From positions 88,317,052 through 88,381,051 of the forward strand of contig OZ024935.1 of assembly GCA_964017235.1 (NCBI GenBank): a DNA stretch of 64,000 nt, read 5' to 3'. The DNA is from Sabellastarte sp. h YS-2021 (lineage: Eukaryota > Annelida > Polychaeta > Sabellida > Sabellidae). The notes under the pieces are model-generated. The model was not told where the DNA came from and did not search any database. It saw only the letters and a program-made list of their open reading frames with translations. The translations under genes were made by a program, and so were the position numbers. The number at the start of each line of letters is the position of its first letter. Position 1 is the stretch's first letter. Below, one piece after another: positions 5,601-18,710 of this stretch.

Positions 5601-8600
5601 TTTGGGGAATTGGCTGTACCAAATAAGGTGGAGGTGATGGGAATTAAAGTGATGATAAACGTAAATTATTTTCAGGCTTTCATGTATGAAGAATCCCACT
5701 TTTGTGCCAAGTTGGAGTACTGATTACATGTAGGAGTTGTAGTATCACTCTTTAAAAGCACTGTCAAATGGTGATTTGTTATTTGATTTACAGCTTGTTG
5801 CCATGCATGTTTGATATATAGAAATTCACATTATTGTACCTATACCAAGAATTTTTTTTTTTTTTTTTCCATAACAATCATTTTATTGGCCCTTTTCCGT
5901 GCATGACCCGGGAGGGCGAGGGCTGCAACCCTCCATCGGGTGTTTTACAAGTGCTTGTCAAAACTTATTTGACATAACTTTACTTATTAACAAGTATGTA
6001 TAAATGCAATTTACTAGAAATTTTATATACAAGAACAGGAAATTAGTCTTTCATTTATCGTGTAAAGCAATTTTTTTTTTTTTTTGTTTTTTTTTTCCAT
6101 CCATTTATTTCAACACCTCTTTTATATCATTTATTACACTACTTAGATAATGATGACATTTTTTTGGAAGACCAAACTTGAAAAGTTCATTGTAGAAGGC
6201 AAGGTTTACTTTAATTTCAGTTTGAAGGTTACACATTTTAAAATCAATGTTATTAAAACTACAATTAATCCATGATTTATATATTGAAAAGGCAGTTATA
6301 ACAATAATTAAGTTGTGTACATAAGTAATGTCTGTAATAATTTGTAAGCCAAAGATGATATGCTTTAATTGTATAGACAATTTTAGCTTCTCTCCAATAA
6401 CACGCCATAAATTATTCAGGCGTTTACAGTAAAATAACAAATGTGAAATACTTTCACTTTCACCACATATTTGACAATTTTTAGAGACGGTTGGATTCCA
6501 TTTACTTATTTTTTCACCACAACTGAGAATGTTCATCAAAATTTTATATTTAAACTCTGCAAATTTAGGAATTTTGTATTTGTCAACTGTTCCCACATAT
6601 GCTCAGTGTATGGTCTTGAATAATTTTCATTAAAAGGGCAGAATAAAATGTTTTTGCTTTCAGACAATTAAGAGCATACATATTATTGCCGATAGCTACA
6701 TCATGCATATATATATTTTCAGTATTTGTATATTTCCAGCTTTTAGTATCAAATTTTTGACTAACTTTCGAAATACTTTCTTAAGAGACATAATCTCTCT
6801 TATCCAATCATTTTTTGTTTGTAATACACTCAGGATAAAGGCTTCATTTAACAATTCTCCATTCTCATTAAGTAAATCTTTTACAAATATCAACCCGCTT
6901 TTGATCCAATGTTTAAAGCATAATGGTGTATTGTTCATTTTGAATAATTCATTTCCCCAAATAATTTGTGTAAGGAATTCATAATTTGATAGTTTTTCCA
7001 GGGGTTTAATATATTTACAAGTGTTGTAGGCACTAATAATTTCCTTAAAGAAAACGGGTAAGCCAGTTAACATTTCAAACTTAGTTATGTCTCTGAAATT
7101 CATTTGAAGTAAAATAGGCAGAGTTATGCCACAATTATTTAAATAATGTACAAATATATTATTTATGATACAACTTGGATCATATAATTTTGTCATCCAA
7201 ACTGCTTTGAGAGCTTTTTCTTTTGCAAATATATCAACCACACCCAAACCACCATATCGTGGATAGCTTGTGGTGACATATCTTTTAATTTTGTCAGTCT
7301 TGCCCCATAGAAAATTAAAAATAAGTTTTTCGAAATTTTTTAATATTGAAAGTGGAGTATGTAAAATAGACATATTCAGAATTATTAGTGGTATAGCTAA
7401 AGAATTTATTAACTTTACTTTGCCAAACAATGACAATTTGACTGATTTCCATTTTAAGAGGATGTTTTCAAATTTCAGTAATTTTGATTTCCAATTTTTA
7501 GTATTACATTCATTTTGGTCATATCCAACATAAATTCCTAAATATTTAATAACTTTATTGTCAAAGGATAAACCATTAAAAAATTTATCACCTGAGCATA
7601 ATGTTCCCAACCACATACCTTCACATTTTGAAATATTTAAGCTTAAACCTGATATTAAAGAAAATTAATCAATTAGTGCTAATGCATTGATAATTGAATG
7701 TTTATCTTTTAAAATCAAAGCTGAGTCATCTGCATACTGAGATAACCGATACTCAACATTACCTATTTTTACTCCTGATATTTCTTTGGAACCTTTAAGT
7801 TTTAAAGAAAGACATTCTACGCACAATATAATAAGTAATGCTGACAGAGGGCAACCTTGACGGATGCCCCTCTCCATTTTAACAGCACCTGAAAACCAAC
7901 CATTGTTTTTCACAACTAAGGAAGGACAACTGTATAAAGTTTTTATCCATGATAAAAAAGACCTGCCAAAGCCAAATTTTTTTATAGCACTCTGCATAAA
8001 TTTCCATTCCACACTGTCAAACGCTTTTTCAAAATCTAGGAATATGAGCGCAGCTGGTTTGTTGAATTTTTGACAATACTCTATTATACTATTTATAAGT
8101 ACCACATTATCACTCATATTTCTATTTTTGATATATCCAGATTGATCTTTACTCACAATTAAATTCATAACCTTTTGTAAACGATTTGCTAACATAAAGG
8201 ACAAAATTTTGTAATCATAATTGCTGAGAGATATTGGTCTATAATTTTTAAGATCAGTATTATCACCTTTTTTGAAGATTAAAGTTACGACAGACTGTCT
8301 CATTGAGCTTGGTAAAATCCCCTTACTTAAAGAATCTGAGATCATGTTTAAATATGGAAACTTTAATTCTGGCCAAAAGGTTTGGTAAAATTCTGGGGTC
8401 AAACCATCCAAACCTGGTGATTTATTACATTTTAATTTATTCACAGCATCTGCAGCCTCTGCTTGAGAAAAGTGATTTTCACAGAATTGCATGTGCTTTT
8501 TTGATACCGTCGGAAAGGTTAAACTATCAAGGTAGCTTTTTATGTGATTTTCATTTGGAATTTTACTTTTATATAATGTCTTATAAAATGTTTGGATTTG

Positions 8601-11600
8601 TGTCAAAATTCCCTTGTTATTACAGGTAAACCCATTTTCTGTCTGTATTTTACGAATAACATTGCTGCCTTGCCTTTGCTGTTCAAGTCCTAGAAATACT
8701 TTTGAATTTATTTCTCCTTCATTTATGGATTTTGCTCTAGCCCTAATGTAATATCCCTTTGCTTTGTTTTCATAATAATGTACCAATTTAGCCTGAATAT
8801 TGTCTCTTTGCATTTCAAGAATAGCCTTTTCCCCTTGGTCATTTCTGCTTTTCATTATTTCATTATCTATGGAATCTAACTCATTTTGTAAACTCTTCAC
8901 TTCAGCTTTTTCTTTCAGTGATTTTTCACTACTGTATGAAATTGAGAATTCTTTGATGTTAATCTTAAGAAGTTCCCAAAGTTCTGAACTATCAAGACTT
9001 GTAGAGTGTTTTGATATTGTTTCCTGTATAATTTGTTTAATGTTCTGTTGATATGGCTCATCATTAATGATATCATTATTTAATTTCCAATATCCAGGTC
9101 CTCTAGTTTGTATATTTAATTTCAAAGTAACAAGCAAAGCTTTATGATCAGTTACATAATTGTCTCTGACTGGTTGCCTAATGATGACATTTTCGATATT
9201 ACCACAACAATCTTTTGACATCAATACATACTGTAACTTTTACATTTTTTGTCATAATATGTAAAACCTTGGTCAGTTTGAATGAACTTTTCTTTTTAAA
9301 TAACCAACAGTCTGTAAGCTTACATTTATTTATCAATTCTTTAAATTGTGTCACACTCTTGTCATTAGATTTGGACAAAGGAAATCTATCTTCAGGAAAT
9401 AAACAAACATTAAAGTCTCCTGCAACTATGACATTATTTAAATTTAGGGCGTACTTTTGAATCCAGAAATACACTGTTTTAAAAAATTCAACACGTTGTA
9501 CTTCAATATTCGGTGCATAAACTGACAGTACACTGAAAATTTCATTTTGGTATTCAAAATTAATCAGTATTAACCTACCAGACTGATCAACTTCACTGCT
9601 GATAACTTTACAGTCAAAATTTTGTTTGAATAAAACTGACACACCTCTACTATGACTGGAATCTGAACAGGAATTATATACACTTCCTTTCCAGCATGAC
9701 TTAATATAAGGTTCTAAATCTTTTGTACAAAAAGTTTCTTGAAGAAATATAATGTCTGCATTTTGGTCTTGTATCCAGAGAAAGAGATTTTGGCACTTTT
9801 TGGGATCATGCAGACCCCGTACATTGCATGTCAGGATATTAAGTTTACTCATATCACAGTGTTAATGATGTTAAAATGCTTGGATTCAAAAGTTTACTCC
9901 ATAATTTAAATTCAAGTCCAATATGGAATATCAACATTCTTAATACAACACTATAGATATGATGTTTGTTATCAATCTGAGAAATTGTATTCTGATTCAG
10001 ATTCACTTCCATCTTGATTTTGGTTTTGGCCTCCATTCTGTGTCTTCCGCATAGATCTCCCCTTTGATGAGCTCTCTTTCACCATTTTGGCACGCAGATC
10101 AGTCAGAAGCTTTCCCATTCTGTTTTTCCCTGGCCAACTGTTCTTTTTCACTCTAAGCACTTGCTCCTTATTCAGCCCAGACGACCAGAACAAATCACCT
10201 TGCACTGCTTCCACCAGTATATTGGAGCCACTTTGGATCAAGGTATCACAGAACTCCGGAGATCCCTTGGCTTTAGCTTCAAGTACTTGTGCCATTTGGT
10301 CTTCTTTTACAAGCTCCCAATTGGGGTTGTATGGTAATGAAGAAGAAAGTCGCTTTGCTTGTAGAGCTTTTTTGGCAGAGAGAATTTCATTTGCAACATC
10401 CGGATGTCCACACTGCACCGCCTTTGAATATTGGTATGCATGTTCCGCAGAGGAAGTACTCACACCAAAAACCTTTATTTGACAGGGGTAAAAGTTACTC
10501 AAGGGATCTTCATATCCTTGAAAAGGCGTCACACACCTGTGCTTTTGCCTTGCTGTGCCAGGACATCCTGTATCTCCAGGTAAATGGCCTGGCTGCTTAC
10601 AAACTACACATGCACTAGGATTCTGGCACTGGTTCCTGAAATGGCCTTCCTGGAAACAATTGTTGCATAAAGGCTTATCCCATCTTTTCTGGCCCCTGTG
10701 GAAAATGACACAGTGTGATGATCCAATGATTGTACGTCTTGGTAAAGGGCTCGCGAAAGGCTCTGTGAAGGCGATTCTGTCACCATTGATTATATCTGTT
10801 AGTTCATTCCTTTCATTTCTAACCTTTCCATATTGGATTGGTCTCTTTAGCTTAATGTTTTTGCTGTCAAGATATGCTATTACATCATTGTTCCCTCTCG
10901 ACAATGGTATGTCTTTAAAAGTAATTTTAATCACATCAGTGTCACTTTGCCCCTGCCCAATTCCTGCTCTGTAAGGATTGTTTGAATGGGTCTGTACAGA
11001 TTGACCTCTGATATTGAGTGTTGTTGTACATAATTTCACCCTTGCTTGGTTGTCTTTCACATAAATTCTCCACACCATTCTAATTCTCTGAATTGCTAGC
11101 AGATCTTTCGGTTGTATAATAGATAATACTGCATCACAAATTTCAAATTCTTTCACTGTCTTAAAATCTATAATGTCTTTTGCATTTATAAACACTGGCT
11201 CCACACTTGGTAAATCCATCCTTTTATTATAGCTAATTTATCTTGCAAGGTTCAGTCATTTATTTTCCAGAAGTAGTAATATTCCTTTAGGAGACACAAA
11301 TTGTTTTGATCACTGATTTTCACAATGGAAAAAGGTCCAGAAGTAGTAATATTCCTTTAGGTGACACAAATTATTTTGATCACTGATTTTCACAATGGAA
11401 AAAGGTCATTAAATTTGCAATTAATTAGCACACAACACAAGTCTGCCCAGGTATTGTCTCTACATGCCTGAGTGAATATTGACAAACCAGGGTTTCACAA
11501 GTTTATTTAAATCTTCACAAGAATTTTATTTTTCAAAGTAGAATTCCATCAAAAGTATTTTATATCCATTATTTTAAATATATCCATATGAATCTATGAC

Positions 11601-14600
11601 TAATTATCTTTCCAATGATACCAAATTCCACAAATTTACACACAGTGTTCACATAGAATAGGTCTAAAACTTGTACACAGAAAAAGATGCTGCTTCTATT
11701 TCTGTGACCATTGACCTCATACCTTGACCTATACCAAGAATGTATAAGGGTCCTGTGTTCAAATGGTGCTAAGTATTGGCATAGAGCAGTAGGTCATGAA
11801 TATTAAATTCCAGTTAAGTTTTAAATCTGAATATTAAGAATATTTTCTATGACTTTATTTGGTAAATAATCCTACATTTACGACAGTTATTGTTGGACTG
11901 TGAATGTTGTCATTCAAAGCATATCACATTTACTTTAGATCCAGTGGCTTCAGTGGAGACACGCTTGCCTAGATGAAGAAATAAGTGAAGCAGAAAAAGA
12001 GGAGAGGCGATTGATGGTACAGTCAACATGTACATATGTGCAACTTTGTGTGAACTTTGCTGATAAACTCCCTTTGTTTTACTGGGACTTAAAGCCTAGT
12101 ACTAAGGTCAACTCAAGAGGTCAAACGGGATTTAAAACCAGGGCATTAGTGGGATGTCCGAAAACTCAGTAATGGGCTCTATTATCCAAACATGGGGAAG
12201 AAGGACTTTATTTTATTTCTTATTCAGAAAAGTTATGTCAGTATAAAAAGGCAGGAAAGTGTACAGCTCTTGGTTCAAAAAATAATCTTGTGATGTCTTA
12301 CATATAATGACAAAAATCTTGCGAGATCGGCTTACCAATATGCCTTTAACTTTTTTAAACCATTTAAGTGATGTAGAAGAGAGGTATTAGCATTTACAAG
12401 GAAAAACAACCAATTCTGATTTGAATTTAAACTTTTAGAATGCTAAAGATAGAAGTGATAATGTAGATTATTTGTAGTTTATTAGATACTTTTTTTAAAA
12501 AAAAATTCTTAAATTAAGGGTATTTCAAGAAATAAGAATGTCAATCTGGTTCATAGAACTCTTTTAGCGGGAAATAGTTTAATGCAAAACAAAATTCTTT
12601 GTGTCTCTGCATTTGTCTTTATCTCTGTAGACACAATAAGACATCCCAGTAAATATATTGTGCTCACTCAAGTGGTTTGTGGACATATAATTTTTGGTGT
12701 GTTTTTTTCGCTGTCCAGCATCACACTTTGTTTCCACTCGTTTAAATTAAGAGTGTTTAATGTATCACAGCCAAACTTTTTATGAAGACTTGGGGGGCTT
12801 GTATGGTCAGATACAAACATTTTGACATTGTCGACGCAAAATTTTCAACACTTCTTTTCTGCTCATTTTGAGGCTTTGTATTTTATCATTCTCCAAGCCA
12901 CATTTGGCGTGGAGACTTGAATTTACCACTTAATATGCTCTTTCACAGCAGTAACAAGTGGGCATGACACATGATAGTAAGTTTCATTCTATGTCATCCT
13001 GTTATTTCTAGTGTTCTAGCTACTTTTAACAGTAGTTCTGTTTCTGGTTTTCACTGTAAACATTGAGCATTCTTGTACATGCTTCACAAAACATGCGATC
13101 TCAAGCCTTAGTTGCTATTATTCTATTTCAACAGGCTGAGAAAGAGGTACTTTATGAGGACATGGAGAATATGTACCTGAGGTTGTACAGCGTTGGCAAG
13201 AAGATTAGACAAATGAATAAAAAGGTGATGAATGAATACAATACAAAACAGTAGAAAAGGTCTTCAAAGGCCCACAATCTATCATTGATATTAATTGTCA
13301 CTTAGGAATTTACAAAAGGTGACTGTGTGCTTCACTTAAAAAAAATCCATTAATTGGACTGGAACTGGAATTCTTTAATTTTTCTTATTTGTATTGGCAG
13401 ATTGTTCCAGAGTTTTTGGTGCACTAAATGAAAAGGATCTGTCACCTGTGGTTTTTTGGAGTAACTTTTTGACAGTGATAAACAAGTAAAGGACCTTGGT
13501 GTCCTTGTGGGGTTATACCGTTTCAGTAGCTCGTACATGTAACTGGTGGGTGGGGGACACTTTCATTTAGACATTTTAAATTTTAAAAACAATTCACTAT
13601 TTCATTGCTAATCAGTGAAGCTATCAGGAAATTAGAGATTTATTTTCTAATTCTGGCTATGTTTCAGAGACGGAAGCTTGAAAGGGATCTATAACCTGGC
13701 AAAAACATGGTCTTGTCAAAGGCGATTCCAATGTCCATAATACTTCAAAATTCTTGTACCAGAGTGAAAGCATTTCTGAACATTTTTCTTCAAACTGGCA
13801 ACACCCTTTGTTGTCTGTCATTTTCAAGAGTGATACAAACTCACTGTAGAATGATTCAATTTTGTTTTTACTAAATTTTATCAAATTTAAATTCCTTATT
13901 AATAAATGATTTACCTGAAGATGAATAAATCATTCTTAAATCTACAAAATAAAATGACCAGTTCAATTTACACTGAAAACTACTGCAACAATGTTCAGTG
14001 TGTTTCTGTTCTGACTTCCGCCTATTTTTGTAATGTGGTGTAATATAAGTTATGTAAAAATTTTAATCGCTCACTCAACACTTGTCTATAATTAATGAAA
14101 TTTATGAAGCAGTTTTTGTGTACTTATTGACATAAATTACTATGTTATTGTTTTTTATAAAGTTGGGTTTTTTCCTTGATAAAATTTTCTTTTATTAGAG
14201 ACTGTTACTGGATAAAATGACAGATAAGGCCCCCTTTTTATTTTAAAACTAGAAAAAAATTATTTACATTTTGTACCAATTCGTTAAATAAATTATTTGC
14301 ATACCTGCCATAAATTAGTTTATTTTTGGTTTTTCCTTTCTTTTTTTGTCATTTCTTTAGCAGTTTCCAGGTCAACATTGCTACTTACACCGAACAATTT
14401 TTTTCAATTTTTTTCTTAGAATTGCAGCTGTCCTGATGAGTCCAACTGTACATGCCAAAAGCAGATCACCAAAAAAAATAAAGCAAAACCATGTGAACCA
14501 GAGACTGACACAACACTAAGGGAATCTACCCCAGTGTGAGTAGATTCCCAAATTGTATAGTCCATTTCAAATGTAACAACAGAACTATAGATTTGGTCCA

Positions 14601-17600
14601 AGCTGAAATTGCAAATCTGTGAATTTACTCATAGTGAAAGTTGGAAAATTTCAGCAATTTATGGGTTTTTAACTTTTTACCCCACAGCCCTTAAGGGCTG
14701 TCGGGGTATTGTTTTCAGCCATGGTGTCCGGATGGGCGCACGTGGGCAGGCGGCGGGAAAAAGTTTGTATGGGCTGTATCTCAGAAACCGTAAGGTGTAG
14801 GAAGTTGATACTTGGTGGGGACGTTGGATAGATACTTGGTTGGGACATTGGTGAGGGGGGTGTAGGTGTGCAACGTCATGGTGTGACCTTGTTTTGACCT
14901 TTGACCTTGCCCTAGTGACCTTGCCCTATAAAATCGTGTGAGGGCTATATCTCGGAAATCATAAGGTGTAGGAAGTTGGTACTTGGTAGGGACATTGGTT
15001 AGGGGGTGTAGGTGTGCAATGTCATGGTGCGACCTTGATTTGACCTTTAACCTTGCCATAGTGGCCTTTACCTATAAAATGTTGTCCGGCTATATCTTGG
15101 AAACCTAGGAAGTTGATACTTGGTAGGGACATGAGTTGGGGTTATATGTGTGTTGTGTCATGGTGTGACCTTCATTTGAACCTTGATCTTGCCCTAGTGA
15201 TCTTGACATGTAAAATCTTGTCCAGGTTATGACTTAGAAACTGTAAGGTGTAGGAAGTTCATACTTAGTGGGGACATTGGCTAGGGGTTGTAGGTGTGCA
15301 ACATCATGGTGTGACCTTGTTTTGACCTTTGACCTTGCTGTAGTGACCTTGACCTATAAAATCTTGTTCGGGCTATATCTCAGAAACTGTAAAGTGCAGG
15401 AAGTTGATACTTGATAGGAACATGGGTTGGGGGTTATAGGTGTGTAGTGTCATGGTGTGACCTTGATTTGACCTTTGATTTTCCTGTTGTAACCTCAGCC
15501 TTTAAAATTTTTTCCAGGCAATGTCTCTGAAACTGTAAACTGTAGGAAGTTGATTGTTTGTAGGGACATTGCTTAGGGGTTGTGGTTGTGCATCATCACT
15601 TTTAGTTTACTGATTAATGCTGTCATCTTGCTATTGAATTGTCTTGTAATACTTTATCTTTACATACATTTCTTTCACTTTCACTAACACAACTGCCTAA
15701 ACGACATTCAAAATTTCATGGTAGCAAATAAGTTAAAACTCAACCCAGACAAAACAGAGTTCATTCTCTCTGGCTCCCAAAAAAATCGTAACCAGCTCCT
15801 CCCTCATTTTCCCAACAATATTCTGGGAAATCAGGTCTCGCCAGCACAAAGTGTCAGGAACCTCGGAGTGGTGTTTGACTCTAATTTCAATTTCTCAAAC
15901 CACGTGTCACAGGTCATTAAGTCCACCAGAGTACAGGCAAGAGACCTCTACAGAATTTGTCCCCTTTTAGACATGAATACATCAGTCCTGCTAGTGAATG
16001 CTTTGGTTAGCAGCAGGCTGGACCACTGCAATTCACTCTTCTTATCCCTCACTGATTTTGAGTTAAGGAGATTGCAGCTAGTCCAAAATTTATGGTGCAG
16101 GATTGTCACCCGTTCCTCTAAATTCTCTCACATTACTCCCCAACTAAAAAAACTCCATTGGCTCCCAGTCAGATACAGGGTACAATTCAAAATTGGTCTT
16201 ATTACATACAAAATTCTCAACCAGGGTCAACCAGTTTACCTAAGAGAATTAATGCACCCCTACTCTTCCTCAAGAAACACAAGGTGAAATACCCCTAAAC
16301 TCAAGTTTCTTCAAACCCCCACCTTCGATCGCAGAGTTCACAAATCTATCAAACACTTTTCTAACTGCTTCAGTCACTATGCCCCTTCCCTTTGCAACTC
16401 CTTCCCTCTCCATGTAAGAAATAGTCCCTCTGTTGCATCTTTTAGGAAACACCTTAAAACTCACCTCTTTAGCTCTAGCTTCCCAACTTAGTCTTTCTTC
16501 CCTCCCGGTCACACCCACAATCCTGGATTACTGACCTTGAATGCCCCTCGACTTCCCTACAATTACGATTTTGTTTAATTAGCGCACTGAGTTCCCCTTC
16601 GTGGGGAAGATATTGCGCTTGCAAAGCAGTAAATTAGATTAGATTAGACTTAGATGTTATTTTCTCTACGTAAACATTATTTGGACACTGCTCTGAAAGT
16701 ATCTCGATCATTGTACTGTTTTACGACTTCTATATCTCATGGTGTTGAAAACTATTTCCCCCAGCTGTGGGGTACAGACATCTGTGATGCTATTTTTTCA
16801 AAAGATTCACCAAAGTGTAAGTAAATTTCTTACTGATAGACAGTGGAATTTGCCCTGGGTGGAAGATGCAATATGTAAGCCATTTACATGAACCTGTTGT
16901 GGATAATCGTACCATAAAGATTGTGTAATTAGACAATAATAAGATTGTGTAATAAGATAATAACATTTCATACCGAAGTCTTGTATTAAATTATTTATTG
17001 TTGATGTCTTATTTTGTATACATACCAAATTGATTCAATTGAGGGATAAGAGTATTTAAAAATATGTACATAAAACATGTCAGTTGGGTGAATACTTTTT
17101 CAGAAGATTGTTTGGGCCAGTTTTTAAATTTTCTATTTTTTTAAATTGTCACTTTGTAATTGAATAAATAGTAAAGTAACTTTTAAACTTAATAAATTGA
17201 CCTCTGAAGTCAGTAATCTACAATTTAACTTGACTGATCAATATTTAATCAATAACTTGACTTCTTAACTTGATTAATCAACTTTCAAACTGAATTAATT
17301 GACTTTTGAATTGATTGAGTTCAGAAGTTTATTGAGTTGAAAAGTTGATCATTGATTAGAAGACTCATGATTCAAAGTTAATTAATCATAATTCACTCTG
17401 CAGATAGTTACTCATCCTGGATTTCCCACACTTGCCCACAAATGACAAATACACCAATGGCTCATAGTAAAACACAGGGTACAGTTCAAAATTTTGTATA
17501 ATCAAAATTCACATACAAAACCACATGGTCACAGAATACCTCCCTGAAAACTCCATTGGTACACCTCATCTAGAAATACTACATGGAATTGGCTAGAATT

Positions 17601-18710
17601 TAAATTTGTTTAAATCCCATCTTACCACAATTAAGTTCACAAAAATCCCACAAGTCATTCAGCTATTATGTACCAATTTTACAAAACTCTCTTCTTCTTC
17701 ATATGAAACGAGTCCCTCAGTCATATCTCTGTGGAAGCATCTTAAGACTTGCATCTTCAACTCGAGTTTGCCACTTGGCAAATTCGCCTTGTTCACACCC
17801 ATGGATTACTGATCTAAGGTGTTACTTGACTATCACATTTTTGTCTATTTTTGTTAGTTAATCACACTGAGTCCCCCCTTAATCCCCAATGCAGTATATT
17901 AGATTTGATTAGAAATAAAATTGTTTTTTTTTTCTGATAGGCAAACTTTACATAGTTACTCTGACAAATTTCTCATTTCTTAAATCATCCCGATTTTTGT
18001 GTTTCAGACCACTCTCTGGTCATAAATCAACCTCTCACAGCTTCCAAGGCAACCAACGATACGTCTCTGTCATGCACACCAAAGAAGAGCCATTTCCCAA
18101 GATGCATCTGTTTAAATTTCACTCCAGCATCTCTCAATGCATGCTGGATGGCAAAGAAAGCCCTTCATCAGCCTGTGCCCTGATCTGCAAAATTTTTGCA
18201 GTCAAATTCAAACGCTATCCTTCAGAATTTGACCATGAAAGACATCCCCTCAGGGATATTCCGACGAAAGTGTTTGACCAAGTGGTAGAATCCATACAGG
18301 AGGGAAACAGGTCCCATTCAAATTACCATAAAGGTGAAATGGCCTTTCTGAGTGCAGAAAATATTGAGGAATTGACAAGCCACCTAGCAACACGACTCGT
18401 GAAACAGCTAGACATAGATACCAGAGTGCCAGATACAATGGTCCCTCATGTGATGACTATAAAGGACAATGAGGTCATTTTGTTTGCAAAAAGTCACCGG
18501 GTTGTGAGTTTGTTCAGCCATAAAGGATGGCTGTGGCTATTTGACTCCCAACGGCATATTGTGAGCAAGGACAAGTCACCCAAGTACTTTGGATCATACT
18601 TATTTTATGCCAAGAAAGAGGAAACGGTCATCAAAAACATGTTTCAGTCTTATGACACTTTTTGTGAGCTGAAGCCCTTCTCTGGGAAGTTTGCAATTTT
18701 TGAAATATGA
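2633..18710 (+). CDS. Six-exon gene, coiled coil + candidate papain-like domain
   Basis: Coding exons: 2633-2690, 5238-5290, 11939-12016, 13135-13224, 14420-14535, 18008-18710 (TGA at the end). Every junction has an AG acceptor and a GT donor (the best is GTGAGT at 14536), and the phases 1,0,0,0,2 join into one open frame of about 365 residues. The first Met is in exon 1, downstream of an acceptor at 2618, so a 5' UTR exon probably exists upstream. Residues ~38-93 (exons 3-4) are rich in E/K/R/L and likely form a coiled coil. Exon 5 holds a CxC-x5-CxC cluster (C95, C97, C103, C105) followed by a Lys-rich run. The last exon supplies residues 133-365. I do not recognise the family by name. Intron 2 is almost wholly occupied by an antisense LINE. 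No signal peptide or membrane segment is seen, so the product is probably nuclear or cytosolic. Confidence 0.72.
2980..4108. mobile_element. Hairpin-headed non-autonomous element with ~150-bp repeats
   Basis: It opens with a perfect 24-bp palindrome at 2980-3003 and closes near 4096-4108 with CTGGTGGATACA, a near reverse complement of TGTATCCACCGG at 2977-2988. This suggests a terminal inverted repeat. Inside, a unit containing GGCGGCCATCTTGAATTTTT and GCGGAAAATGAAAAAT recurs at about 3505, 3655, 3795, 3947 and 4028 (spacings 150, 140, 152, then truncated). The open frames here on both strands are read through these repeats and are not genes. The element lies in intron 1 of the plus-strand gene. 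No transposase is present. Confidence 0.65.
4109..5237. other. Intron 1 sequence, nothing recognised
   Basis: AT-rich intronic sequence between the hairpin-headed element and the exon at 5238. I see no gene or clear repeat in it. Confidence 0.5.
5838..5852. repeat. LINE target-site duplication, left copy
   Basis: ACCTATACCAAGAAT, identical to 11727-11741 on the other side of the LINE. It directly abuts the T run (antisense poly-A) of the element, as expected of target-primed reverse transcription. Confidence 0.9.
5853..6104 (-). other. LINE 3' end with two poly-A tracts
   Basis: Sense strand: the ORF2 stop overlaps an AATAAA (complement at 6104-6109), followed within ~10 nt by an A-rich tract (6071-6096). 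About 200 nt of other sequence follow, then a second AATAAA (complement at 5882-5887) and the terminal 17-nt poly-A (5852-5868) at the target-site duplication. The segment between has a GC-rich patch (5908-5942) able to fold through GAGGG/CCCTC. It may be a long 3' UTR or a 3'-transduced flank. Confidence 0.7.
6105..6596 (-). pseudogene. LINE ORF2 C-terminus (zinc-finger region)
   Basis: C-terminal end of ORF2, 163 codons. It contains CQICGESESISHLLFYC, the C-x2-C-x7-H-x4-C finger typical of the ORF2 C-terminus in Tx1/L1-type elements, followed by an LNNLW motif. It is out of frame with the upstream part (ends 6696): the ~100 nt between read in a third frame, so at least two indels separate them. 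It stops at TAA 6105-6107. Confidence 0.85.
6696..7616 (-). pseudogene. LINE ORF2 middle section
   Basis: 306 codons following the reverse transcriptase. It is in the same frame as the RT segment upstream; the two are parted only by one TAA at 7665-7667 (read as ...LID-stop-FSLISGL...). It contains KYLGIYVGYD and SLFGKVKLINSLAIP, the thumb-side motifs that follow RT in L1/Tx1 ORF2. It ends in a frameshift near 6700. Confidence 0.88.
7665..9224 (-). pseudogene. LINE ORF2 reverse transcriptase
   Basis: 519 codons with the non-LTR reverse transcriptase core: SPGLDGLTPEFYQ, YRPISLSNYDYKI, LIFLDFEKAFDSVEW (catalytic Asp), RGIRQGCPLSALL, and YADD at about residues 497-500 (7725-7736). All three catalytic aspartates are visible, so RT decay came from framing lesions rather than active-site loss. 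It overlaps the endonuclease segment by ~26 nt in another frame. It ends at a premature TAA, after which the same frame stays open. Confidence 0.93.
9199..9852 (-). pseudogene. LINE ORF2 N-terminal APE endonuclease, broken
   Basis: Start of ORF2. It shows the APE/DNase I-like motifs LTCNVRGLHD, IIFLQET (catalytic Glu), SVYAPN and VAGDFNV (catalytic Asp/Asn). After about residue 188 the frame is wrong: the family-like sequence continues in a second frame (QTDQGFTYYDK) and then switches to the frame of the RT segment. The SRxDY-type motif expected just before MSKDCCG is absent, consistent with a ~10-nt deletion near 9220. Both lesions would inactivate the protein. Confidence 0.9.
9972..11219 (-). 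CDS. LINE ORF1: two zinc knuckles plus NADAR domain
   Basis: Intact 415-codon frame. Residues ~45-165 resemble two RRM-like folds (VWRIYVKDNQARVKL; DVIKITFKDIPLSRGNNDVI). CCHC knuckles: C185-x2-C-x4-H-x4-C198 and C204-x2-C-x4-H-x6-C219. Residues ~231-378 match the NADAR (YbiA/RibX-like) domain: GYEDPLSNFYPC, SSAEHAYQYSKA (E259), AKRL, QVLEAKAKGSPEF, LVEAVQGDLFWSSGLN (D342, W345) and WPGKN (363-366). The Glu, Asp and Trp I would expect in the pocket are present. In bacteria, NADAR proteins act on ADP-ribosylated substrates, including removal of ADP-ribose from guanine in DNA. The C-terminus is a Lys/Ser-rich then acidic tail. ORF1 should bind element RNA; the role of the NADAR part here is inference. 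It starts at ATG 11217-11219, right after a short 5' UTR stretch. Confidence 0.9.
   Translation of the reverse strand: MDLPSVEPVFINAKDIIDFKTVKEFEICDAVLSIIQPKDLLAIQRIRMVWRIYVKDNQARVKLCTTTLNIRGQSVQTHSNNPYRAGIGQGQSDTDVIKITFKDIPLSRGNNDVIAYLDSKNIKLKRPIQYGKVRNERNELTDIINGDRIAFTEPFASPLPRRTIIGSSHCVIFHRGQKRWDKPLCNNCFQEGHFRNQCQNPSACVVCKQPGHLPGDTGCPGTARQKHRCVTPFQGYEDPLSNFYPCQIKVFGVSTSSAEHAYQYSKAVQCGHPDVANEILSAKKALQAKRLSSSLPYNPNWELVKEDQMAQVLEAKAKGSPEFCDTLIQSGSNILVEAVQGDLFWSSGLNKEQVLRVKKNSWPGKNRMGKLLTDLRAKMVKESSSKGRSMRKTQNGGQNQNQDGSESESEYNFSD
11267..11406. repeat. 70-bp tandem duplication in LINE 5' UTR
   Basis: Two copies (11267-11336 and 11337-11406) of a 70-bp unit containing AGAAGTAGTAATATTCCTTT, differing at few positions. 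They lie just upstream (sense) of the ORF1 start. Tandem repeats in LINE 5' UTRs often carry promoter activity; that role here is inferred. Confidence 0.85.
11727..11741. repeat. LINE target-site duplication, right copy
   Basis: Exact 15-base match to 5838-5852. It marks the 5' end of the element on the minus strand and shows that the copy is not 5'-truncated. Confidence 0.9.
11742..13345. other. Intronic sequence around exons 3 and 4
   Basis: Apart from the coding exons 11939-12016 and 13135-13224 of the plus-strand gene, I see no other gene, RNA or repeat family here. Confidence 0.5.
13350..13540 (-). pseudogene. LINE fragment (L2/CR1-type C-terminus)
   Basis: The minus frame reads YNPTRTPRS, then ...HLVHQKLWNNLPIQIRKIKEFQ, the L/F-W-N-x-L-P signature that closes ORF2 in L2/CR1-group elements. 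It is 5'-truncated and short. It lies in intron 4 of the plus-strand gene. Confidence 0.7.
14678..14708. repeat. Near-perfect palindrome heading a tandem-repeat element
   Basis: Arms TACCCCACAGCCCTT and AAGGGCTGT-C-GGGGTA meet at a TTAA centre; one extra C breaks perfect symmetry. It marks the left edge of the 146-bp repeat element that follows. Confidence 0.8.
14709..15600 (+). repeat. Five tandem ~146-bp units, TGACCT-rich
   Basis: The phrase GTCATGGTGTGACCTT (with small changes) starts at about 14875, 15021, 15157, 15303 and 15449, giving spacings 146, 136, 146, 146. Each unit also holds a GGCTATATCTCGGAAA-like phrase and AGGAAGTTGATACTTGG. Several units contain TTTGACCTTTGACCTT, i.e. AGGTCA half-sites spaced by one base (DR1). 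Open frames through this array are repeat artefacts. It lies in intron 5 of the plus-strand gene. Confidence 0.85.
15680..16650 (+). pseudogene. L2/CR1-group LINE 3' end
   Basis: Begins within the RT thumb (CLNDIQNFMVANKLKLNPDKTEF). It continues with RNLGVVFD, VSSRLDHCNSL, RIVTRSSKFSHITP and LKKLHWLPVRYR, all hallmark phrases of L2/CR1-group ORF2. A stop at ~16285 is a lesion: the family-like reading continues (NSFPLHVRNSPSVASFRKHLKTHLF) to ~16490. The 3' UTR ends in GCGCACTGAG...TTGCGCTTGCAAAG and a short TTAGA/TTAGATTAGATT tail (~16631-16648) instead of poly-A, typical of this clade. It is 5'-truncated and sits in intron 5. Confidence 0.88.
17165..17395. repeat. AT-rich patch of TTGATTAATCAA-like words
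   Basis: Variants of AACTTGATTAATCAA and TTGACTTTTGAATTGATT recur in both orientations, so the segment can fold on itself. It is possibly a degenerate foldback element, and no coding signal is seen. Confidence 0.4.
17425..17915 (+). pseudogene. Second, more decayed L2/CR1-group 3' end
   Basis: It is colinear with 16130-16650: ACAGGGTACAGTTCAAAATT, then SSYETSPSVISLWKHLKTCIFNSS (compare SPSVASFRKHLKTHLF), then AATCACACTGAGTCCCC and a terminal TTAGATTTGATTAGA. It lies 0.8 kb from the first copy in the same orientation and is more diverged, with several indels. Confidence 0.78.
18008..18710 (+). CDS. Terminal exon, possible papain-like cysteine peptidase domain
   Basis: This exon carries residues 133-365 of the six-exon gene. 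The segment SSACALICKIFA places a Cys (about C188) at the start of a hydrophobic helix. A later segment HKGWLWLFDSQRH gives a His (about H303) and an Asp (about D311) on a strand-like stretch. A Cys at a helix start followed by a distant His and an Asp in W-x-L-F-D-S is the pattern of papain-fold deubiquitinase-type domains. This is inference from order and spacing only. H295 in 'KSHRVV' is an alternative catalytic His. The region between is helical and charged. The exon starts after a TTTCAG acceptor at 18007 and is read in the frame set by exon 5. Confidence 0.6.

Follow-up and report, generated by a model that had tools for sequence, protein, structure and literature searches.

Why should a retrotransposon carry a NADAR domain behind the RNA-binding parts of its own protein? 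This question is raised by a long interspersed nuclear element (LINE) in the annelid Sabellastarte sp. h YS-2021, found in a stretch of 64,000 nucleotides of contig OZ024935.1 that is called the window here. Its first open reading frame (ORF1) had been described in an earlier sequence-only reading as zinc knuckles fused to NADAR, and the coordinates given there are correct; the frame lies on the minus strand, frame 1 of the plus strand across 9972..11219 being full of stops. We could show that in window ORF1 two predicted RNA recognition motif (RRM) folds are followed by a pair of zinc knuckles, with NADAR as the C-terminal domain. The RRM folds (residues ~6-175 of the structure model) had been missed by the earlier reader. 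The two CCHC knuckles are real: knuckle 1 is canonical (C185-C188-H193-C198, CX2CX4HX4C), scoring in the window copy under the Pfam cut-off (17.9 vs 20.8 bits), while knuckle 2 has a longer last gap (C204-C207-H212-C219, CX2CX4HX6C). All eight zinc ligands are present in 21/21 copies (the window and 20 others from the same genome) and the ORF1 family profile matches solved nucleocapsid knuckles.

The NADAR assignment is confirmed by Pfam PF08719, which matches residues 238-379 (E 2.8e-24, 86.6 bits vs a cut-off of 35.1), and the matches to YbiA (2b3w, 4.3e-9) and 8bau (6.9e-6) in the PDB indicate a YbiA-like fold. All five published ADP-ribose pocket and catalytic residues of the Phytophthora nicotianae NADAR (E43, K50, E125, D130 and W133) have a counterpart in window ORF1, namely E259, K266, E337, D342 and W345. 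In the crystal structure of the P. nicotianae protein all five contact ADP-ribose, D130 via water, and mutants of the E. coli C7 NADAR showed that the counterpart of K50 and D171 (equivalent to E125) are required for efficient hydrolysis, whereas at the counterpart of E43 an exchange to Q mattered and one to A did little in vitro (PMC11543638). As the last-strand position is a glutamate, E337, and not D or H, the window NADAR is assigned to the YbiA family and not to the DarT1-linked BC4488 family, the aspartate of which is absent. We are sure of fold, fusion and pocket, regard enzymatic competence as likely, and consider substrate and opponent to be uncertain.

That the frame is indeed a LINE ORF1 follows from its neighbours, which are those of a LINE ORF2: an AP-like endonuclease, a reverse transcriptase (RT) and a zf-RVT domain all lie 3' of ORF1 on the same strand, a feature of the L1 group, and the whole is enclosed by a poly-A tail and target-site duplications. 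Among solved structures the RT is closer to human LINE-1 ORF2p (1.8e-61) than to R2 (8.7e-17). Membership in the Tx1 clade is putative, the name being taken from the sequence-only reading and from PMC12477816. The window element is an L1-group non-long-terminal-repeat (non-LTR) retrotransposon, and because of the A tail and the exact flanking repeat the ~5.9-kb stretch is one insertion holding 5' untranslated region (UTR), ORF1 and ORF2. The repeat, at 5838 and 11727, amounts to 14 bp plus one T of possible tail origin; more than 11 bp in common was seen in 0/500 random 1.2-kb stretches of the window. ORF2 is broken, with endonuclease and RT in different frames, an internal stop within the RT frame and a further disruption across 6696-6596; ORF1, by contrast, is open.

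The fusion is not restricted to this copy. A search of the protein database with ORF1 gave 26 matches, of which 22 were aligned with the query, leaving out P0021 and P0022 (broken ends) and two fusions with GDSL hydrolases (P0026, P0027); we call ORF1s of this architecture type I. Of the 23 aligned rows 22 cover the pocket, with E43 kept in 21, K50 in 18, E125 in 20 and W133 in 22, and with D130 being D in 16, E in 5 and N in 1; in P0020 E125 appears to be displaced by an alignment gap. The own genome (1.786 Gb, 647 contigs) yielded 2355 first-look candidates for ORF1, and the best 101, which were scored, show 42-100% identity (100% being the window itself). From these 101 places 63 start somewhere within the first 60 residues and reach at least residue 380. 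Two begin in the first 60 residues and end before NADAR, their missing halves being listed nearby, and a few end early inside NADAR (e.g. 1-241, 4-256, 1-267) with no other half listed, so that some copies may possibly have lost the domain. The frame is uninterrupted and the RRM-RRM-CCHC-NADAR fusion recurs at many places of the genome, which rules out both chance and a join made during assembly. The 20 places fetched from the 101 were mainly chosen for being unbroken, and this biases the counts of residues towards intact copies: with the window included E43 is found in 21/21, K50 in 19/21, E125 in 20/21 and W133 in 21/21, and D130 is D in 14/21, E in 6 and Q in 1. In one copy (L048) E125 is deleted from an otherwise open ORF1. 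Of the pocket residues named by the sequence-only reading, most relatives thus keep the glutamates and the tryptophan, and at the aspartate position most of them have D or E. A profile search of proteins gave 32 matches, six of them new relative to the first search: P0030, the short pieces P0049, P0050 and P0052 with no listed NADAR, the short NADAR protein P0051, and P0053, which belongs to the second type described below. A full-length ORF1 free of NADAR was not among these 32 matches, and no relatives were found in the viral contigs searched.

The NADAR family as a whole gave 2705 first-look candidates in the own genome, and all of the best 150 that were scored (150/150) lie above the Pfam cut-off. 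From them 19 further places, mostly with long frames, were taken with their flanks (L009-L027), and in 15/19 of these stretches another open frame gives a match to a LINE endonuclease or RT. ORF1 frames that can be aligned as one family, two of them truncated, came from 16/19 places (outside the alignment are L023, a standalone NADAR, L025 and L026). Where type I has RRM-RRM-CCHC, this type II ORF1 has a coiled coil plus a pair of domains, and its frames are 26-33% identical to window ORF1. In the six type II loci scanned with Pfam, NADAR is the sole family above the cut-off (E 1.2e-44 to 1.3e-42) and the LINE-1 ORF1 family was not reported. A profile of 11 N-terminal parts matches human LINE-1 ORF1p (2ykp, E 1.2e-9; 2yko, E 1.3e-9) over coiled coil, RRM and C-terminal domain (CTD; positions 53-211), followed by another ORF1p (2ldy, 3.1e-4), with generic coiled coils appearing only from 0.001. 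Judged by this match, an ORF1p of the LINE-1 type likewise has NADAR behind it. In the type II element L018 the best match of ORF2 is LINE-1 ORF2p (2.8e-72), and the five pocket residues are invariant in 17/17 type II rows (the 16 frames and P0053).

In both ORF1 types NADAR is the part with the highest mean pairwise identity, with 0.46 in 19 type I database rows (vs 0.39 for the N-terminal part, 0.43 for the middle and 0.40 for the knuckles) and 0.46 in type II (vs 0.23, 0.34 and 0.39 for the other parts). When type I subfamilies are compared in pairs (58-97% identity), the proportion of synonymous differences (pS) is 0.68-0.87 and the non-synonymous one (pN) in NADAR 0.12-0.30, like that of the RRMs; the best-measured pair, L037/L039, gives rates (dS and dN) of 1.76 and 0.15.

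What could such a domain do for the element? The NADARs tested so far from bacteria, phage and one oomycete act as hydrolases on the guanine-linked ADP-ribose of DNA (PMC11543638, PMC11125620), and on RNA NADAR was the only tested family to remove guanine-linked ADP-ribose, phosphate-end ADP-ribose being untouched (PMC11833690). By analogy, guanine-ADP-ribose hydrolysis would be the chemistry to expect of the window NADAR. Tested NADARs are inactive on uracil-ADP-ribose made by PARP10 (PMC13036486), and animal enzymes that ADP-ribosylate guanine in DNA have been described from butterflies and six clams (PMC11209040). The sequence-only reading had proposed an eraser against PARP-type ADP-ribosylation; the eraser agrees with fold and pocket, but since tested NADARs spare both phosphate-end and PARP10-uracil marks a guanine-specific transferase would be the better opponent. 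Our preferred reading, to which we give slightly less than an even chance, is that NADAR is a working guanine-ADP-ribose hydrolase on the ORF1 protein (ORF1p), used in counter-defence against guanine-specific ADP-ribosyltransferases. The RRMs and knuckles would coat the RNA of the element in the manner of ORF1 proteins and ORF1p would bring the hydrolase to element RNA and cDNA, protecting both, with NADAR acting as an N-glycosidase that strips ADP-ribose from guanine in element RNA, cDNA or the target site. The transferases might be those of the host or of its parasites, and the counter-defence would be parallel to that of NADAR antitoxins and animal nidovirus NADARs.

Several observations weigh against this reading. 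Some relatives have H, Q, R or F where K50 would stand, the two pocket glutamates are replaced by Q and D in an otherwise open ORF1 (P0017), and A at the counterpart of E43 cost the E. coli NADAR only a minor loss in vitro (PMC11543638). In 16 distinct own-genome type I copies the column conservation of NADAR (0.66) does not exceed that of the RRMs (0.66, 0.67), and 19% of its columns are invariant vs 14-15% in the RRMs. Among young, near-identical copies purifying selection on NADAR is not clear: when six pairs are pooled, the changes in NADAR number 6 (synonymous) and 15 (non-synonymous; omega 0.68), those in the RRMs 10 and 6, respectively (Fisher p 0.05), the counts being small and three of the six pairs (window family) sharing rows. 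The dN/dS test suggested by the sequence-only reading is mixed, with low pN between subfamilies and an omega of 0.68 in young pairs. Decay after insertion may explain the latter, and we read the data as long-term constraint along active lineages followed by such decay, the alternative being relaxed or changing selection on NADAR. Finally, YbiA also acts on riboflavin intermediates (PMC11543638), and the substrate can therefore not be read from the pocket.

This last point leads to the possibility that NADAR cuts soluble substrates, i.e. free ADP-ribose derivatives, products of RNA end-healing or a riboflavin intermediate, by which an NAD-derived alarm would be blunted or RNA repair followed by a clean-up. 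Riboflavin intermediates are cut by E. coli YbiA and by plant NADARs (PMC11543638), soluble substrates have been put forward for phage NADARs in a survey of NAD systems in viruses (PMC9503650), and the Ectocarpus study suggests that retrotransposon NADARs process RNA intermediates (PMC12477816). We consider it improbable here, as NADAR is fused to the nucleic-acid-binding parts of two ORF1 types, which favours a nucleic-acid substrate, and as the NADARs of animal RNA viruses are argued to act mainly on macromolecular marks (PMC9503650). Rather unlikely, too, is a pocket that holds ADP-ribose but hydrolyses it inefficiently, serving to dock the ribonucleoprotein at ADP-ribosylated sites, for example DNA that is nicked or under repair. 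The pocket residues for pyrophosphate and ribose are retained, and K50, which is linked to efficient hydrolysis, is together with D130 more variable than E43 and W133; against it stand E125, retained in 20/21 type I and in all 17 type II rows, and the published NADARs, which as far as tested are hydrolases with no action on PARP10-uracil or phosphate-end marks. The earlier suggestion that the fold binds nucleotide termini finds no support here. A passive, structural or oligomerisation module free of selection for enzymatic function would suit the C-terminal position, the omega of ~0.7 in young copies, the residues lost in P0017 and L048 and the few listed matches that end inside NADAR, yet it is very unlikely in view of the low pN between subfamilies whose synonymous sites are nearly saturated, the invariant pocket of the 17 type II rows and the 63 of the best 101 scored places that run from the N-terminus through the end of NADAR.

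As to the origin of the domains, we reconstructed a tree of 69 NADARs (14 from phage and plasmid records, ten near-copies dropped, midpoint root). One of its groups (97/93) unites type II and the standalone copies described below with 8bau and a set of NADARs from prokaryotes and phage; another (100/97) joins type I to the GDSL fusions and further short proteins with NADAR, adjoining the YbiA set. The two types lie on opposite sides of the starred branches, with prokaryote or phage NADARs on both. The type II NADAR of L020 is 45% identical to one of a Vibrio phage, and type I reaches up to 36% among the 15 listed of 582 phage records. Separate captures by type I and type II are favoured by this tree. 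We do not regard two or more independent captures as established, because approximately unbiased (AU) tests did not reject a single clade of both types, neither against 17 prokaryote or phage rows (p 0.179) nor in a smaller first set against 4 rows (p 0.229); one clade of type II and the standalone copies is borderline (p 0.048). The wider proposal that on at least two occasions LINEs of this genome acquired catalytically competent hydrolases for guanine-ADP-ribose, carried by structurally different RNA-binding ORF1s, with a third in a virus-like element, and kept and amplified them through many subfamilies, is a doubtful one in our estimate. If true, guanine ADP-ribosylation would be a real, undescribed animal defence against mobile elements, with ORF1 carrying the antidote.

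The genome also holds a standalone NADAR gene of 161 aa in dispersed copies (L001-L008, e.g. L001:1462-1947, L023, L049, L050; Pfam E 1.3e-49), with the pocket residues retained in 2/2 copies checked. A short NADAR frame (167-179 aa) was present in the first 38 of the best 150 scored places. For kilobases around the standalone copies the flanks are ~78-99.7% alike, a 166-bp tandem array lying on the downstream side, and within ~8 kb of one copy there are a BIR+RING IAP-like ORF and a dUTPase ORF. Perhaps the locus is a virus-like element, the IAP-like and dUTPase ORFs being neighbours of one copy. The database proteins P0026 and P0027, which come from other sources, join two enzyme domains, GDSL/SGNH hydrolase and NADAR, with CCHC knuckles; they are separate in a first tree (one clade not rejected, p 0.436) and paired beside type I in the second.

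The coordinates of the LINE are collected in Table 1. The 70-bp tandem pair of its 5' UTR (11266-11407) is possibly a promoter unit. The acidic tail is the least conserved part of ORF1 among the database rows, and despite this an acidic-aromatic ending recurs in many type I ORF1s (ESEYNFSD, ESDYYFSD, ESDYYYED, SESDYEY; window 9975-10010, minus strand), which is perhaps a short linear motif. Elsewhere the window contains a diverged tandem array (15106-15592, 146-bp period, 3.3 copies), a plus-strand frame of 189 aa (15718-16287) that by eye resembles the C-terminal RT part of another LINE and had no Pfam match up to E 0.1, and a plus-strand frame of 237 aa (17997-18710) with sub-threshold Pfam matches only (Lig_C 0.016, Peptidase_C5 0.062).

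Table 1: Features of the LINE and its ORF1, in positions of the window; residue numbers are those of ORF1, and P. nicotianae equivalents follow PMC11543638.
Feature	Position	Strand	Basis or remark
Whole LINE, ~5.9 kb	5852..11726	-	between target-site duplications, poly-A
Target-site duplication, 5' side	11727..11741		exact repeat; 15 bp, last T possibly tail-derived
Target-site duplication, 3' side	5838..5852		exact repeat
Poly-A tail	5852..5868	-	17 T on + strand
70-bp unit, two tandem copies, 5' UTR	11266..11407	-	97% alike
ORF1, 415 aa + stop	9972..11219	-	open reading frame, uninterrupted
RRM fold 1, residues ~6-80	10980..11204	-	predicted structure
RRM fold 2, residues ~95-175	10695..10937	-	predicted structure
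Two CCHC zinc knuckles, residues 184-219	10563..10670	-	Pfam, family profile, ligand conservation
NADAR domain, residues 230-382	10074..10532	-	Pfam PF08719, PDB matches
E259 (E43, distal ribose)	10443..10445	-	8bau alignment
K266 (K50, pyrophosphate and adenine contact)	10422..10424	-	8bau alignment
E337 (E125, YbiA-family marker glutamate)	10209..10211	-	8bau alignment
D342 (D130)	10194..10196	-	8bau alignment
W345 (W133)	10185..10187	-	8bau alignment
Acidic C-terminal tail, mostly disordered, ends SESESEYNFSD	9975..10073	-	pLDDT (model confidence) <50 from residue 388
ORF2 endonuclease part	9199..9852	-	Exo_endo_phos 1.7e-13 (Pfam)
ORF2 endonuclease end + RT (YADD), different frame	7665..9224	-	RVT_1 1.7e-29 (Pfam); LINE-1 ORF2p 1.8e-61
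ORF2 piece downstream of RT core	6696..7616	-	open frame; matches L014 ORF2
ORF2 C-terminal zinc-binding piece	6105..6596	-	zf-RVT 1.2e-8 (Pfam)

The sequence-only reading did not say whether the fusion had been described; it has been, in one passage of one paper. From a Repbase query, several Tx1 LINE families of Crassostrea gigas apparently hold a YbiA-family NADAR in their ORF1s, Gypsy elements of Ectocarpus carry one too, and a role in RNA processing was guessed (PMC12477816). NADAR on a LINE ORF1 is thus already known and the window fusion joins that kind; the C. gigas families, compared here by description, may be of either ORF1 type. Judged by titles and abstract openings, no other account of a LINE ORF1 with NADAR was found among the papers listed from the open-licence literature, and the word NADAR is absent from the main text of two studies of bivalve transposable elements (PMC8905726, PMC10294476). 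New here are NADAR on a LINE-1-type ORF1p, the pocket conservation and the abundance, for which we found no earlier account. The physiological role of animal NADARs is stated to be unclear (PMC11125620), and the abundance of the LINE-borne ones suggests that transposons may be the source of some database entries for 'animal NADARs'. Should the domain prove active, a retrotransposon would itself be equipped to erase a modification of nucleic acid. Guanine ADP-ribosylation, studied so far mainly as a toxin reaction, would then become a candidate layer of animal defence.

In summary, one accessory enzyme is found on two different ORF1 chassis. Human LINE-1 ORF1p (2ykp) is homologous to the type II ORF1s, the matched stretch ending ahead of the NADAR start, and is built as coiled coil-RRM-CTD whereas window ORF1 is RRM-RRM-CCHC. 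The human protein is not known to carry a NADAR, and the esterase of non-LTR retrotransposons is reportedly a precedent for an enzyme inside ORF1p. The closest known systems are the C. gigas Tx1 elements, which like the window combine a LINE ORF1 with a YbiA-family NADAR, and the Ectocarpus Gypsy elements, which share with it a retrotransposon carrying this family (PMC12477816). With the DarT1-NADAR antitoxins and the E. coli, phage and Phytophthora NADARs the window domain shares fold and pocket residues (PMC11543638, PMC11125620), but it differs from the DarT1-linked ones by a catalytic E in place of D and by its fusion to RNA-binding parts. Structural matches of NADAR also occur in gill-associated virus and yellow head virus; these nidovirus domains lie in RNA virus polyproteins with a replication machinery unlike that of a LINE, yet they too belong to parasitic RNA genomes of aquatic animals in which NADAR stands beside replication proteins (PMC9503650).
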